A DNA stretch of 33,759 nt from a virus: positions 1 to 33,759 of the IMG/VR virus record IMGVR_UViG_3300029787_000179; one strand, 5' to 3'. Below, piece by piece: positions 3,495 to 21,830 of this stretch. The stretch's first letter is position 1. Every line of letters starts with the position of its first letter. The position numbers and the translations under genes are program-made. The notes under the pieces were generated by a model. The model did not search any database and was not told the origin of the DNA. It worked only from the letters and a program-made list of their open reading frames with translations.

Positions 3495-5081
3495 TTATGT
3501 TCTTTGTCCAGTAATCCAACTTCTTAATATAGATTTTTGTTTTTTCTTTTGATTAATATTATCATTTGCTTGAAAATTATCAGAGTTAAAACCTTTACTT
3601 AGGGGGGCTCTAGCATTTACAACTGAATACCAAAGGCCATCTAATAGGTCATCATTCTTTCCTTTTGGAAAATGAAACATTTCATCTACTAATTCTTGAT
3701 GTATTTTTTTATGAAATAATTTACCACGATTTACAATAGGGCATAGTGTAGATTCTATTCTATCTTCTTTTTTAATTCCATGTGGTGGTCTAACTCCCCT
3801 AGCTATACCAGGAGCCATTTTTCTATCGAAACCACTCATATTGTTTACAGAGTCTTTAATAATTCCTTGAGCACCTACGTGCTCTACGTTAACTCTTCTA
3901 ACTGGATTATATTGTTTTGCCATCTCAAATATTTTTTGTGGCATTTCATATAAAGGTAAATGATCGTGATAGTAATCTAATATATAATAATTTTTTTCAC
4001 TATCAATAGCTGTAACCATGATAACCTGATAATCACTATTTGCATTTGCTTCATAAGCTAAGTCTACACCCATATAAACATTTACTGGTATAACTCTGTC
4101 TTTTGATTTTATATAAGCTTGATTAGAGTTAGATACAAACTCATAATCATGATGCTGTAGTTTATCAATTTTAAATTTAGCAGTAGCTAAGTCTCTAGCA
4201 TCATTCATATACTCTTGTGCAAACTTATGTAACTGTCCTACATTTTCATAGTCTTTTCTTATTTGATTTATTTTATCTTTACTAAAATAAGACTCCCATA
4301 AAGGTTTGCCATCTTCTAATACCCTATGAAATATAACATCCCAAGTATAAGATTCGTTTTTTTCTTGGGCTTCAAGATATCCATCGTATATAGCCTGCAA
4401 TGCTGAATCGTAATGTACGATAGTGCCAATTAACCAAATGGATCCCTCGTTGCCCTTAGACTCTTCTAAGGATGGGTAAACAGTCGACATCAACCATTCC
4501 TTAATTTCTCTTCTTCTATCTGGTGTTTTTGTATTTAACTCAGATTCAAAGTCATCAAGAATAATATTTGTATACCTAGTACCTAGCTCAGATCGACCAC
4601 GCAATCTTTGGCTAGTACCTTTTGCTATAACTCTATCTCCACGACTGGTTGTTATTTCTTTTTCAGTCCACTTATCCCCAACCATATCTCCAAAATAATA
4701 ATGCAATGGACTATTAAACTCAATATGATTTTTAATATACTTTAAATGATCAACAGCTTGTCCTTGTTCTTCTGATACCCAAGCAGCAAATTCTTTCTTA
4801 CCTTTTGGATTAAAATATATTTTATGCAATAATGCAGCTTTAGCCATAGTAGATTTAGAATGACCTCTAGGCAAAACAACACAAAGTTTTCTAAGGCTTT
4901 TATCAAGCAACTTATTACCAACCTCATAATGAAAAGGAGCTGGTGTGCTTTTCATAAAATCATCTGGAAGAAACAGTTGACCAAAAGCTATAAGATCTTT
5001 TGATACTAAATTAAGAACTCTTTCTTTTTCAGAAAGACCACTTGAGTTTATATTAAAATTATCTATTGTACCAATCTCCAC
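3495..5081 (-). CDS. Terminase large subunit (TerL)
   Basis: This 528-aa protein is the DNA-packaging motor. It has an ATPase with Walker A PRGHSKST at residues 71-78 and Walker B IILDDFE at 173-179. A C-terminal RNase H-like nuclease follows, with acidic residues in MGVDLAYE (D340), NVEHVG (E400) and NDDLLDG (D477, D478, D481). Length and domain order match phage TerL. The likely start is GTG at 5081, inside the end of the GGCT gene (23-nt overlap), with no strong ribosome binding site, so translation may be coupled. TerS is two genes upstream and portal follows. Confidence is high because all catalytic motifs are present. Confidence 0.95.
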   Translation of the reverse strand: MEIGTIDNFNINSSGLSEKERVLNLVSKDLIAFGQLFLPDDFMKSTPAPFHYEVGNKLLDKSLRKLCVVLPRGHSKSTMAKAALLHKIYFNPKGKKEFAAWVSEEQGQAVDHLKYIKNHIEFNSPLHYYFGDMVGDKWTEKEITTSRGDRVIAKGTSQRLRGRSELGTRYTNIILDDFESELNTKTPDRRREIKEWLMSTVYPSLEESKGNEGSIWLIGTIVHYDSALQAIYDGYLEAQEKNESYTWDVIFHRVLEDGKPLWESYFSKDKINQIRKDYENVGQLHKFAQEYMNDARDLATAKFKIDKLQHHDYEFVSNSNQAYIKSKDRVIPVNVYMGVDLAYEANANSDYQVIMVTAIDSEKNYYILDYYHDHLPLYEMPQKIFEMAKQYNPVRRVNVEHVGAQGIIKDSVNNMSGFDRKMAPGIARGVRPPHGIKKEDRIESTLCPIVNRGKLFHKKIHQELVDEMFHFPKGKNDDLLDGLWYSVVNARAPLSKGFNSDNFQANDNINQKKKQKSILRSWITGQRT

Positions 5082-5421
5082 TTTCTATTACTCTAAATGA
5101 ATTACTACGCTGCAACATCTCATCTCCAGCAACATACATCCAAACATTTTCTGTAGAACCATTATCCATCTCTACATTCGTTTTAACTCTTCTATATAAA
5201 CCAGAACTAATACCTTCATACATATCGTATCTCATTAGCTCTTCAAAGCTAATATCATGCACTTCAACAACTGTTCCTTTACCCTTATCATTTTGTATTA
5301 CAGCTGGAAAATTTTTATGTCCTGGGTATACAAGAGATGATTTTTTTACCTTGCCAGTATTCTTAGAACCTTTTCTAAGCGTTCCATATACAGCAAGCTT
5401 TATATCTTTTTTATTATTCAT
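5059..5421 (-). CDS. GGCT/AIG2-like gamma-glutamylcyclotransferase
   Basis: This 120-aa protein has the hallmark YGTLRKGSKN at residues 13-22 and a later RYDMYEGI...YRR segment typical of the GGCT/AIG2 fold. Family members cleave gamma-glutamyl-amine or gamma-glutamyl-amino-acid bonds, releasing 5-oxoproline. It sits between a small Cys protein and TerL, in a packaging operon where no metabolic role is obvious. It starts at ATG 5421, overlapping the previous stop (TAATG) with GGAGTGA upstream. The phage also carries an amidotransferase and an amidoligase at 11-14 kb, so the three may act on related bonds. That link is inference. Its true substrate could instead be a host metabolite such as a glutathione-like thiol. 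Confidence 0.82.
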   Translation of the reverse strand: MNNKKDIKLAVYGTLRKGSKNTGKVKKSSLVYPGHKNFPAVIQNDKGKGTVVEVHDISFEELMRYDMYEGISSGLYRRVKTNVEMDNGSTENVWMYVAGDEMLQRSNSFRVIESGDWYNR

Positions 5422-5645
5422 TAACTCACTCCATGAACTGCTGGTAAACCAACAGAATCTATTTCTAAGTTATTATCATAAATAGTCATACAACTCATAC
5501 ATTCAACATACATTTTATTTTGATCTAAGTTTTTTATTATGTAAGCAGTAGGAAATAGTTTATGCCCACATAGTACACAACGACTAGACTTCAACTTCTC
5601 TGTTAGCTTCTGCAATTTGTTTAACTCCTCCTGATCCGATGGCAT
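5421..5645 (-). CDS. Small zinc-ribbon-like protein
   Basis: The 74-aa product has a short helical N-terminus (EELNKLQKLTEKLKS), then CVLCGHKLF and, about 25 residues later, CMSCM. This makes a plausible four-Cys zinc ribbon. It starts at ATG 5645 with AAAGGAG at good spacing, inside the end of the TerS-like gene (62-nt overlap), and ends in a TAATG overlap with the GGCT gene. I do not recognise the family. Its position among packaging genes suggests a DNA- or terminase-associated role, but nothing in the sequence proves it. Confidence 0.65.
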   Translation of the reverse strand: MPSDQEELNKLQKLTEKLKSSRCVLCGHKLFPTAYIIKNLDQNKMYVECMSCMTIYDNNLEIDSVGLPAVHGVS

Positions 5646-11109: not shown

Positions 11110-12294
11110 ATGTGTGGTATATTTGGTTATGCAAAGCAGAGCAATGCACAGACAGACCAACAGATGGAGACCATCAACGTAGTTCTAAAAAACCTAGCTA
11201 GAGAATCAGAAGTCAGAGGTAAAGATTCTACTGGTATAGCAATTATCAGCGAGAATAAAAATCCTCTAGTATTCAAGTCTCTAAAGAAAGCTAGTAATCT
11301 AGTTAAGGACAAACACTATGGAAAGATTCAAGAGAGTATTGACAAAGAGACAGCGATAGTTCTAGGTCATACTAGATACGCTACTCACGGTACAGTATCT
11401 CTAAAGAACGCTCATCCATTTAGTTTTGGCTCTATTATTGGTACTCACAATGGTGTAATATACAATCATGAAGATGTCTCAGCATCTCTTAAAAGAGTGT
11501 ATGAGGTAGACTCACAAGCTGTGTTTGCTCTATTTGACCAGAATAGTAACTTACAAGAATGTCTAGACGAGATGTACGGAGACTACGCATTAGCATGGAA
11601 TAAAGATAACAAGAACACCTTGTATCTACTGAGAGAAGAAGGTAGACCATGCCATTACGTATACTGGAGTGAAGCTAAAGTTATGTTCTATGCATCTACT
11701 AAAGAGATACTAGAACAAGCTATACAGAAAAGCACTATGAGTAGACGTATAGATAAGCATACGATTGAAGTATACAATCACTTGCTCGATCTATACACGT
11801 CTGAGATACATACACTAGATGTGGATAAGTTATACACATTCGATACACACAAGTTTACAGACGAGTTAGTATACGAGACTAAAGACTATATCACAAACTC
11901 TATATCATATAACTACGTAAAAAGTAGAGGTGCCTGGGATTATGGTAGCTATGGTAGATATGGTGGTTATGGATATAATACTTGCGATGTAGATGATTAT
12001 ATGCTAGACGAGATTAGCTGTGATGGATGCGACGAGAAAACTCAGTACGTGGATATAATCTACAACGAAGATACTAAAGAGTATGTATGCTATGATTGTG
12101 AATACAAAGAGAATCCAAAACTAAACGTAGATGAAGCTTATATGGAAGGTATAGAGTGTAGCGACTGCAAGTCTTACGATGACAGCATATATAAAGTCAA
12201 TAAAGATTATATATGTGAAGATTGTTATTCTAAAGAAGACTCATCCAGAGAGGAGAGTTACGATGATAAACAGCAAAAATTCTTTCATCTCTAA
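11110..12294 (+). CDS. Class II glutamine amidotransferase with C-terminal zinc modules
   Basis: The N-terminal 240 residues are an Ntn-type glutaminase. They show nucleophile Cys2 exposed after Met removal (MCGIFGY), RGKDSTGI at 36-43, GHTRYATHG with R89, NAHPF at 100-104, HNG with N114-G115, and VDS with D134. It should release ammonia from glutamine. No synthase domain follows. Instead there is a Gly/Tyr-rich linker at about 272-290 and four CxxC pairs (304/307, 327/330, 350/353, 369/372), which look like two LIM- or treble-clef-like zinc modules. GGAGAATAT precedes the ATG. The amidoligase two genes on has similar Cys modules, so it is the likely ammonia or amine acceptor partner; this is inference. 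Confidence 0.9.
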   Translation: MCGIFGYAKQSNAQTDQQMETINVVLKNLARESEVRGKDSTGIAIISENKNPLVFKSLKKASNLVKDKHYGKIQESIDKETAIVLGHTRYATHGTVSLKNAHPFSFGSIIGTHNGVIYNHEDVSASLKRVYEVDSQAVFALFDQNSNLQECLDEMYGDYALAWNKDNKNTLYLLREEGRPCHYVYWSEAKVMFYASTKEILEQAIQKSTMSRRIDKHTIEVYNHLLDLYTSEIHTLDVDKLYTFDTHKFTDELVYETKDYITNSISYNYVKSRGAWDYGSYGRYGGYGYNTCDVDDYMLDEISCDGCDEKTQYVDIIYNEDTKEYVCYDCEYKENPKLNVDEAYMEGIECSDCKSYDDSIYKVNKDYICEDCYSKEDSSREESYDDKQQKFFHL

Positions 12295-12580
12295 AAAAGT
12301 AGCTATGATAGTTGGTATAGAAGATAGTATTAGATATCGTACCAAACTACAAGCTATGAAGAAGCTATACAAGAAAGCTAAGAACAATCCATTTACAGAT
12401 ACAGAGTCGTTTGATAGTTACATGAAGTTCATAGCTAACAAGATCAGAGAAGGTACAAGCGTAGACGTTCAATCAACAGAGCCAGAGGAGATATTCGATA
12501 CATTGAAGAAGATAGGTTGGCTCAGAGAGAGAAGCTACGCTAGTTTCTATATGATTACTACTAACAAAGCAATAGCTTAG
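12263..12580 (+). CDS. Unknown 105-aa protein between amidotransferase and amidoligase
   Basis: AGGAGAG at 12251 points to ATG 12263 rather than the more upstream frame opening at 12179. The gene overlaps the amidotransferase end by 32 nt. The product is basic and helical (LQAMKKLYKKAKNNPF, SYMKFIANKIREGT), then EPEEIFDTLKKIGWLRERS. There are no Cys modules. Its fixed place between two enzymes of one likely pathway suggests an accessory subunit or the substrate, but nothing in the sequence shows which. Confidence 0.7.
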   Translation: MINSKNSFISKKVAMIVGIEDSIRYRTKLQAMKKLYKKAKNNPFTDTESFDSYMKFIANKIREGTSVDVQSTEPEEIFDTLKKIGWLRERSYASFYMITTNKAIA

Positions 12581-12589
12581 GAGGTATGT

Positions 12590-13918
12590 ATGCCAGCTAG
12601 AATAAATACTAGAAGGATAGAAACCTTTGAATGTCATTGCTGTAGTGATACATATACAGTTAATAGTCTTGAAGCTAGAAAACAAGAAAGAGAAGGTACC
12701 TTAGAGCACCCCATTAGGCAGGTAAGAGATGTTAATATACACGGTCAAAGTTGGGAGATAATATGCAATGTCTGTTACGATGATGAAATAACAGAATGTG
12801 CTGATTGCTCTTGTAGTCTAGAAAGAGATAGTTCTTATACTTTCTATAGCGAAAATGGAGAAGCATACTGCGAAGATTGTTACTATGAAAACTATAGCCA
12901 TTGCGATGACTGTGGAGAAGAAGGTCATAGAGACTATATGATATACAGAGAAAGCAGAGAACAGATGTACTGTGAGAACTGCGATCCTGGAGATTCAGAT
13001 GATGTAGACCTATGGAGTTTCAATAGAATAAATAAGATAGAGTCTACAATACCAGAGACAGAGTCACGTAGGTTCGTAGGAGTTGAGATAGAGTGTTTAG
13101 TTGAGGATTCAGAGTGGTGGGATTATCATGATAATTATCCAGAGACATTCAGAGCTGTTAGCGATAGCTCTATAGAAAGAGTAGAAGATAGTAGTACAGT
13201 AGAGTTTGTACATAGAGCACCGATACAAGGTAGAAGACTTAAGAGGTCTATAGTTTCTATGTGTGATTATCTATCAGCCAATGACTTCTTTACTAATAGA
13301 AGCTGTGGTCTACACGTACACGTTGATGCTGCAGATATGGGTTATAGAGATCTTAAGTGGACTCTACTATTAGGTAAGTCTGTTCAAGACATTATCTATA
13401 AGATGATGCCAATGTCTAGACGAGATGGTAGATGGGCTAAGAGAATACCTATGAGTAGAGAGAGTATACTTAATATCTGTGATGACCATGACTTCGTAGA
13501 CCAATGGTACTCAGCCTGGGGCGTAGAACCTAGCTATGAGAAGTATAATAGCTCTAGATATTGTGGTATGAATATGCACTCTAGGATTATCAATGGCTCT
13601 ATTGAGTTTAGGTATCACTCTGGTACTATCAATAGAAACAAGATAATAAACTGGATTACTATATGCCAAGCGATAGTAGATACTGGTAGACTTCTAGGTA
13701 TGTATGGAGAAGCTAAATATATTGCTAACATTCCAGAAGAATATCATTATATAAAAGTACTAGCTAACCAGATCTCTGAGAGAGACTTAACCTATGGAGA
13801 GTTTTGTAAGTATCTTAGATTACCTCTTGAGGTAAAACAGCACACTAGGAAGAGACTAACTAAGTTCTACAACTCTGACTACAGAGAAGACTACGAGACT
13901 ATGCATTTCTACGTATAA
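12590..13918 (+). CDS. Amidoligase (glutamine-synthetase-fold COOH-NH2 ligase) with N-terminal zinc modules
   Basis: Residues about 160-420 match phage-type putative amidoligases. GVEIECL has metal-binding E166 and E168, SSTVEFVHRAP has E205, GLHVHVD has H242 and H244, and SIEFRYHSGTIN has E339 and R341. These enzymes use ATP to join a carboxyl to an amine. The first 135 residues hold repeated Cys pairs (C15/C18, C59/C62, C70/C73, C94/C97, C105/C108, C128/C131), probably several zinc modules that may choose the target. TAGGAGGT directly precedes the ATG. It lies in an operon with the class II amidotransferase. The substrate is unknown: phage protein, host protein or cell-wall peptide are all possible. 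Confidence 0.88.
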   Translation: MPARINTRRIETFECHCCSDTYTVNSLEARKQEREGTLEHPIRQVRDVNIHGQSWEIICNVCYDDEITECADCSCSLERDSSYTFYSENGEAYCEDCYYENYSHCDDCGEEGHRDYMIYRESREQMYCENCDPGDSDDVDLWSFNRINKIESTIPETESRRFVGVEIECLVEDSEWWDYHDNYPETFRAVSDSSIERVEDSSTVEFVHRAPIQGRRLKRSIVSMCDYLSANDFFTNRSCGLHVHVDAADMGYRDLKWTLLLGKSVQDIIYKMMPMSRRDGRWAKRIPMSRESILNICDDHDFVDQWYSAWGVEPSYEKYNSSRYCGMNMHSRIINGSIEFRYHSGTINRNKIINWITICQAIVDTGRLLGMYGEAKYIANIPEEYHYIKVLANQISERDLTYGEFCKYLRLPLEVKQHTRKRLTKFYNSDYREDYETMHFYV

Positions 13919-21575: not shown

Positions 21576-21830
21576 CTATTTTACTACCTGATAACCTGAA
21601 TCTGTTATTATCTTTCTAACTTCTATCAAGTCTAAAGGCACTTTGTCTTTTATTGTTATTGTTATAACACCTTTTTTTAAATCTACTTTTACATTCTCTA
21701 CAGCTTCTAGTTTAGATATATTCTTTTTTATACCTTGAGCACAAAAAGAACATACCATCCCTTTAACTTCTATTTGCACATAAGTTGGCATAGCAAAAAC
21801 AAGGCTTAAAAATAATAGTATTCTATACAT
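21576..21830 (-). CDS. Secreted heavy-metal-associated (MerP/CopZ-like) protein
   Basis: The 84-aa protein has an N-terminal signal segment (MYRILLFLSLVFAMPTYVQ). A full HMA fold follows, with metal-binding GMVCSFCAQGIKK (Cys27, Cys30), strand AVENVKVDLKKGVITITI and a closing SGYQVV. The fold binds copper, mercury or similar ions through CxxC, and export makes it MerP-like. It starts directly after the stop of the 101-aa basic gene. Among virion-type genes this is unexpected. It may be host-derived and supply or sequester metal during infection. Confidence 0.8.
   Translation of the reverse strand: MYRILLFLSLVFAMPTYVQIEVKGMVCSFCAQGIKKNISKLEAVENVKVDLKKGVITITIKDKVPLDLIEVRKIITDSGYQVVK

Follow-up and report, generated by a model that had tools for sequence, protein, structure and literature searches.

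Why should a phage encode a glutamine-hydrolyzing enzyme and an amide-forming ligase close together, each extended by paired CxxC motifs, and what would such enzymes act on? The question is raised by a 33.8-kb viral fragment (IMG/VR record IMGVR_UViG_3300029787_000179; 33,759 nt), referred to here in its whole length as the window. An earlier note on this DNA had proposed that the two enzymes, together with a gamma-glutamyl cyclotransferase-like protein, add and remove amine or gamma-glutamyl groups on a defined protein or peptide. The gene content of the window is that of a phage: portal, TerL, TerS, a DnaB-type helicase, a Sak-like annealing protein, an exonuclease, and an endolysin are encoded. 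Amid the structural genes, positions 21576 to 21830 (minus strand) encode an 84-aa protein that, judged by eye, has the look of a secreted heavy-metal-associated (HMA) protein, with the motif GMVCSFC.

Organization of the locus

Three genes on the plus strand form the block of interest: GAT (11110 to 12294; 394 aa), a predicted stand-alone class II (Ntn) glutamine amidotransferase that would supply the glutaminase half; MID (12263 to 12580; ∼105 aa, with an inferred start codon); and AL (12590 to 13918; 442 aa), a predicted Amidoligase_2 carboxylate-amine ligase of the glutamine synthetase (GS)/GCL fold. A run of small ORFs and the exonuclease gene flank the block. Because the GAT and MID ORFs share 32 nt and AL starts 9 nt past MID, the three genes have the appearance of one operon. 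The two enzymes had been described in the earlier note as two genes apart; they are indeed close, but a single gene, MID, intervenes. The fourth gene, GGCT (5059 to 5421, minus strand; 120 aa, gamma-glutamyl[amine] cyclotransferase-like), lies 5.7 kb from the block in the terminase block, which is transcribed the opposite way; it occupies the interval between the TerS block and TerL and overlaps the start of TerL. Coordinates and ORFs of all four genes were exact on re-check. In the interval between TerS and GGCT, positions 5421 to 5645 (minus strand) encode a conserved 74-aa CxxC protein with no confident family match.

Enzyme families and active sites

Family assignments were made with Pfam, and those from PHROGs agreed on GATase_6, Amidoligase_2, and GGACT. 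GAT matched GATase families only (GATase_6, E value of 2e−16) and has no synthase domain, as the earlier note had it, so the ammonia it releases would require a partner. Against the PDB, GAT retrieved only glutaminase domains, those of GlmS, PurF, and AsnB (best E value of 2.5e−16). The protein begins MCGI, which places a Cys nucleophile directly after the Met; C2 was invariant in 23 GAT relatives, as were R89, N114, G115, and D134, the glutamine-binding residues identified by alignment to GlmS. The Cys nucleophile and the Arg, Asn-Gly, and Asp residues identify GAT as a predicted class II glutamine amidotransferase with predicted glutaminase activity.

AL matched PF12224 with an E value of 1.5e−18 and 68 bits (Pfam cutoff of 22). 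Its catalytic domain (13064 to 13879, plus strand) holds the residues invariant in 22 relatives, namely, E166, E168, D192, E205, H242, H244, R277, R323, N328, E339, and R341. An AlphaFold2 model of AL (pLDDT of 83.5) gave VIA Z scores of 13.4 to 1tt4, 13.3 to YbdK (1r8g), and 12.9 to plant GCL (2gwc); model residues 154 to 433 superpose on the YbdK family, plant GCL, and glutamine synthetases with Z scores of about 10 to 13, in agreement with the glutamine synthetase fold proposed earlier. The catalytic fold is thus one that AL has in common with the group of YbdK, glutamate-cysteine ligase, glutamine synthetase, and PafA, although identity to these proteins is about 10% and AL adds zinc modules. 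Score, modeled fold, and conserved acidic, His, and Arg residues all place AL in Amidoligase_2, and ATP-dependent amide formation is predicted. Conservation of the catalytic residues, a point on which the earlier proposal had been left to stand or fall, therefore extends to both enzymes.

GGCT matched the GGACT family (PF06094) with an E value of 3.7e−14 and 53.7 bits against a cutoff of 22.8, which bears out the GGCT-like gene earlier placed beside TerL. Residues Y12-G13-T14-L15-R16 (YGTLR) and E69 (in the motif YEG) were at least 95% conserved among 20 nonredundant relatives; E69 is presumably the catalytic Glu of the GGCT/GGACT family. A phmmer search of the PDB with GGCT gave no match.

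Putative zinc modules on both enzymes

Both enzymes carry extra CxxC modules, at the ends where the earlier note had seen them. GAT has two at its C terminus (12019 to 12225, plus strand), following a Gly/Tyr-rich linker, with CxxC motifs at residues 304, 327, 350, and 369 (C304/C307/C327/C330 and C350/C353/C369/C372). AL has three LIM-like modules at its N terminus (12632 to 12982, plus strand), with CxxC motifs at residues 15, 59, 70, 94, 105, and 128 (C15/C18/C59/C62, C70/C73/C94/C97, and C105/C108/C128/C131). The eight cysteines of AL modules 2 and 3 (C70 to C131) were invariant in the 22 relatives, the same degree of conservation as that of the catalytic residues, and those of module 1 were at least 90% conserved. 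In the first GAT module, C327 and C330 were invariant and C304 and C307 nearly so across the 23 relatives, not all of which retain the second module (C350 to C372). Since most of these cysteines are conserved in relatives together with the catalytic residues, they are not a chance pattern, and their arrangement suggests that the modules bind zinc.

When module profiles of the two enzymes were compared by using hhalign, GAT and AL matched each other with probabilities of 84 to 88% and E values of 4e−6 to 7e−6; five further proteins from this phage clade, most of which have CxxC motifs, served as controls (thin ones, at four sequences each) and gave E values of 0.01 or worse. The AL module profile also retrieved LIM domains of CRP1 and CRP2 (E values of 0.001 to 0.005; 0.001 to 0.08 for LIM chains overall). 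A true LIM domain was rejected, as seven residues separate C97 from C105, compared to two between the fourth and fifth ligands in LIM. We regard the modules as tandem zinc modules of an apparently LIM-like type, and those of GAT probably share an origin with those of AL. The earlier note had the Cys modules choosing the target. That is one possibility. Given that GAT and AL carry the same module type, it is no less likely that the modules let GAT, MID, and AL dock with one another.

The middle protein and its neighborhood in viral genomes

A search with MID itself retrieved 74 viral loci, which include near-copies and hence represent fewer than 74 independent lineages. Of the 73 loci in which the MID model scores, GAT was immediately upstream in 73/73 and AL immediately downstream in 70/73; the three loci without a downstream AL (L270, L291, and L306) stop at a contig edge, and the 74th locus (L300) begins inside MID, with AL present. 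The gap from MID to AL was 2 to 14 nt in 69/70 loci, and MID without GAT or AL was never found where the contig reaches far enough. MID is a dedicated, conserved component of the GAT-AL system, which bears out that much of the earlier suggestion that the 105-aa protein is a subunit or the substrate.

MID had no match above chance in Pfam or PHROGs, and its model (pLDDT of 69.8) had none in the PDB at an E value of ≤0.001; against viral models there was one match (E value of 8e−4). Two lysines, K28 and K82, are invariant. A Pup-like tag, which would end in Gly-Gly-Gln/Glu, was considered and rejected because the C termini are variable, mostly IA, IS, or GV.

Searching with a GAT profile retrieved 80 viral loci. 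In each of the 31 closest (L072 to L102), MID adjoins GAT and is followed by AL-type sequence. AL was nearby in 44 of the 49 more distant loci; the other 5 begin no more than about 1.1 kb from the end of a contig. The co-occurrence of the enzyme genes with GGCT, a check set beforehand, was found in the first 31 MID-bearing records examined (AL in 31/31 and GGCT in 30/31), within one phage clade; 13 of 17 further MID records also carry GGCT. Wherever both are present on a contig, GGCT adjoins TerL. GGCT loci lacking GAT were considered as counterexamples and rejected, since their contigs appear to stop short of the GAT position. Wherever TerL was found in a MID phage, it is homologous to that of the others (61 to 96% identity); because the co-occurrence is confined to this clade, it may be plain vertical inheritance and is not by itself proof of a shared pathway.

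One member of the clade, G002 (L331 to L333), has contig ends that share a 318-bp overlap (97% identity) and therefore represents a near-complete genome of about 46 kb. Two larger records, G009 (80 kb; L246 and L247) and G298 (64 kb), each contain two diverged TerL-plus-GGCT sets about 44 to 45 kb apart, each set with MID; they are two related phage genomes joined per record.

A second amidoligase gene, AL1, lies upstream of GAT in 55/73 MID loci. AL1 carries zinc modules in most cases and is often about 600 aa, and the window lineage does not have it. In the AL tree, the downstream ligases (AL2, to which AL of the window belongs) fall on one side of a branch with an SH-aLRT value of 94, and AL1 and AL2 group together with a value of 84. 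Because the AL1-less window lineage nests within AL2, loss of AL1 in that lineage appears to be the simpler reading, with moderate support.

Comparison with known cassettes and other mobile elements

Phage cassettes of GAT, amidoligase, and GGCT are known, and peptidoglycan modification has been proposed for them (PMC5498523, which cites Iyer and Hardies). Each genome with the classical peptidoglycan modification cassette (RIO-1/PSA-HP1, phiEco32, and LUZ24-like phages) encodes a class II GAT, an amidoligase, and a GGCT, as does the window. The window differs from the classical cassette in having neither the ATP-grasp (PHROG 2599) nor the COOH-NH2 ligase (PHROG 3815) gene, both of which adjoin GAT and AL in named phages; its clade, in turn, has zinc modules on AL and GAT, MID, and, in most members, AL1, and it places GGCT beside TerL rather than within the cassette. 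Neither PHROG 2599 nor PHROG 3815 was found in the window or in any MID-bearing record searched, near-complete G002 among them; PHROG 2599 was found only in L106, which lacks MID.

Among ten named phage regions, AL was in every case without CxxC. The GAT genes of the Zobellviridae phages T5S1 (PQ867842) and T4S1 (PQ867841) and of Vibrio phage 275E43-1 (OX241572) adjoin ligase genes, as in the window. In the oyster phages T5S1 and T4S1, GAT has a C-terminal CxxC...CxxC pair like that of the window GAT; AL of all three phages, unlike the window AL, has no CxxC, and in T5S1 and T4S1 annotated ATP-grasp and COOH-NH2 ligase genes adjoin, again unlike in the window. L125 and L177 show the reverse, with many CxxC motifs on AL and none on GAT, so that the modules are not strictly tied between partners.

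Cellular relatives were sought in a bacterial and archaeal scan of one genome per species (84,980 species). Most of the Amidoligase_2 relatives found in bacteria have no CxxC; matches covering the zinc part came from Omnitrophota (loci L167 to L174, in six assemblies). A zinc-bearing AL is followed by a zinc-bearing GAT in 7/8 of these loci, and the eighth is cut at a contig end. RadC, a type IV secretion system (T4SS) coupling protein, and a TraG/TraC ATPase are encoded on those Omnitrophota contigs that were scanned for them. The two Omnitrophota enzymes, which carry 6 to 8 CxxC motifs on AL and 2 on GAT and are encoded by adjacent genes, resemble the phage pair in this; unlike in the window, the order is AL-GAT, the contigs are bacterial with T4SS-type genes, and the loci have no MID and no GGCT match. 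MID was likewise absent, in a search run without a positive control, from the seven bacterial genomes with AL and GAT (six Omnitrophota and one Elusimicrobia). The zinc pair, found in only six of 237 Omnitrophota genomes sampled, is therefore present on a second, conjugative-type kind of mobile element, which does not imply that Omnitrophota are hosts of the phages. A plasmid collection gave three weak matches, to the catalytic domain only. In Elusimicrobia, L177 (7470 to 8831) encodes an amidoligase with 22 overlapping CxxC motifs, which adjoins a GAT without CxxC and a second amidoligase.

A functional analogue is MurT/GatD, in which a separate glutaminase and an ATP-driven ligase form a carboxamide during peptidoglycan amidation (PMC6113224 and PMC3267633); the families differ on both sides, and the likeness to GAT and AL is one of analogy only. 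In all, the kind of system is already known, and the zinc modules, MID, the AL1/AL2 pair, and the reduced gene set are the features in which the window clade differs. In the open-license PMC literature searched, we met no report of partners that both carry zinc modules, of MID, of an AL1/AL2 pair, of the reduced set, or of the Omnitrophota elements, nor any report of the product of phage amidoligase/GAT cassettes, which have been noted for years.

Proposed function and alternatives

The enzyme families, conserved active sites, operon-like packing, obligate neighborhood, and shared modules are computed results. As the reading that we favor, while holding it at somewhat less than an even chance, we tentatively propose that GAT and AL work with MID as a single complex that makes amide bonds at the expense of glutamine and ATP, most likely acting on a peptide of the host cell envelope. 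GAT would free ammonia from glutamine and pass it to AL, which would activate a carboxyl with ATP and couple it with this ammonia (or with an amine), and the LIM-like modules of both enzymes, with MID, would keep the components in contact with one another and with the target. That target would most likely be a gamma-glutamyl-type carboxyl of an envelope peptide (a peptidoglycan precursor or stem peptide). GGCT might trim or recycle gamma-glutamyl by-products, and the envelope change during infection may exclude rival elements or protect the takeover. We infer the complex, its reaction partners, its target, and its benefit.

An envelope peptide is favored because a cell-envelope target has been proposed for the related cassette (PMC5498523 and PMC10580990) and because phages and conjugative elements would both gain by excluding rivals; the zinc pair on Omnitrophota elements with T4SS-type genes fits a function from which any mobile element could profit. 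Several results speak against it. The classical ATP-grasp and COOH-NH2 ligase, on which the case for peptidoglycan linkages partly rests, are missing here. GGCT stands apart under opposite transcription, its co-occurrence is a matter of one clade, and the zinc modules are not tied between partners. In addition, the presence of LIM-like modules and of a dedicated small protein would suit a protein as the target as well.

For that last reason a protein target comes close behind, though on its own we consider it rather unlikely: AL, guided by the modules and MID, would add an amine, an amino acid, or ammonia to carboxyls of a specific host or phage protein, with MID as adaptor or substrate. The modules are weakly similar to LIM, a protein-binding domain, and occur on both enzymes; MID is obligate and has its two invariant lysines; and AL shares its fold with PafA/Dop, enzymes whose substrates are carboxyls of proteins or of Pup. 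However, MID has no Pup- or ubiquitin-like C terminus, and the usual bacterial Amidoligase_2 protein dispenses with CxxC. A more specific version is more speculative still, namely, that MID, as adaptor or as tag through K28/K82, is the platform on which the LIM-like modules of GAT and AL come together in a mobile-element protein-amidation or -ligation system by which phages, and conjugative elements that lack MID, remodel a specific host protein by a glutamine-fueled amide bond. The earlier pairing of a protein target with a GGCT that reverses the AL product found no support.

The nearest folds to AL, YbdK and GCL, are small-molecule ligases, and GAT, amidoligase, and GGCT-type enzymes occur in secondary-metabolite pathways, such as the BtrG-type GGCT of butirosin synthesis. 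That the system makes a small peptide or an amide metabolite (e.g., a host-control or anti-defense compound), with no macromolecule modified, nevertheless seems improbable, given that no carrier protein, transporter, or precursor-peptide gene was noticed near the block and that MID is not peptide-like. DNA base hypermodification, in which AL would amidate a carboxyl-bearing base and the zinc modules would bind DNA, we consider the most far-fetched of the alternatives. The genes adjoin replication and recombination genes, and amidoligases are predicted in some base-modification pathways, but inspection by eye of the window and of the larger unmatched G002 ORFs revealed no base-modifying partner, and G002 showed just one short DNA-methyltransferase-like ORF. 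We also give little credence to auxiliary nitrogen or amino acid metabolism, in which the enzymes would boost host glutamine/glutamate metabolism, as has been proposed for phage ZRK32 with its GAT, amidoligase, glutathione synthase, and GGCT (PMC10945688); bulk metabolism needs neither zinc modules nor MID, MID phages have no PHROG 2599 ATP-grasp, and the obligate three-gene order would go unexplained.

Whichever target applies, a known cassette type is extended in the window clade by a third, conserved component and by zinc modules that match between the enzymes. That zinc-AL and zinc-GAT also accompany each other on conjugative-type elements suggests a function from which mobile elements in general would benefit. 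The window clade is a reduced version of the system (GAT, MID, and one AL, plus GGCT), and without the extra ligases its reconstitution should be simple.
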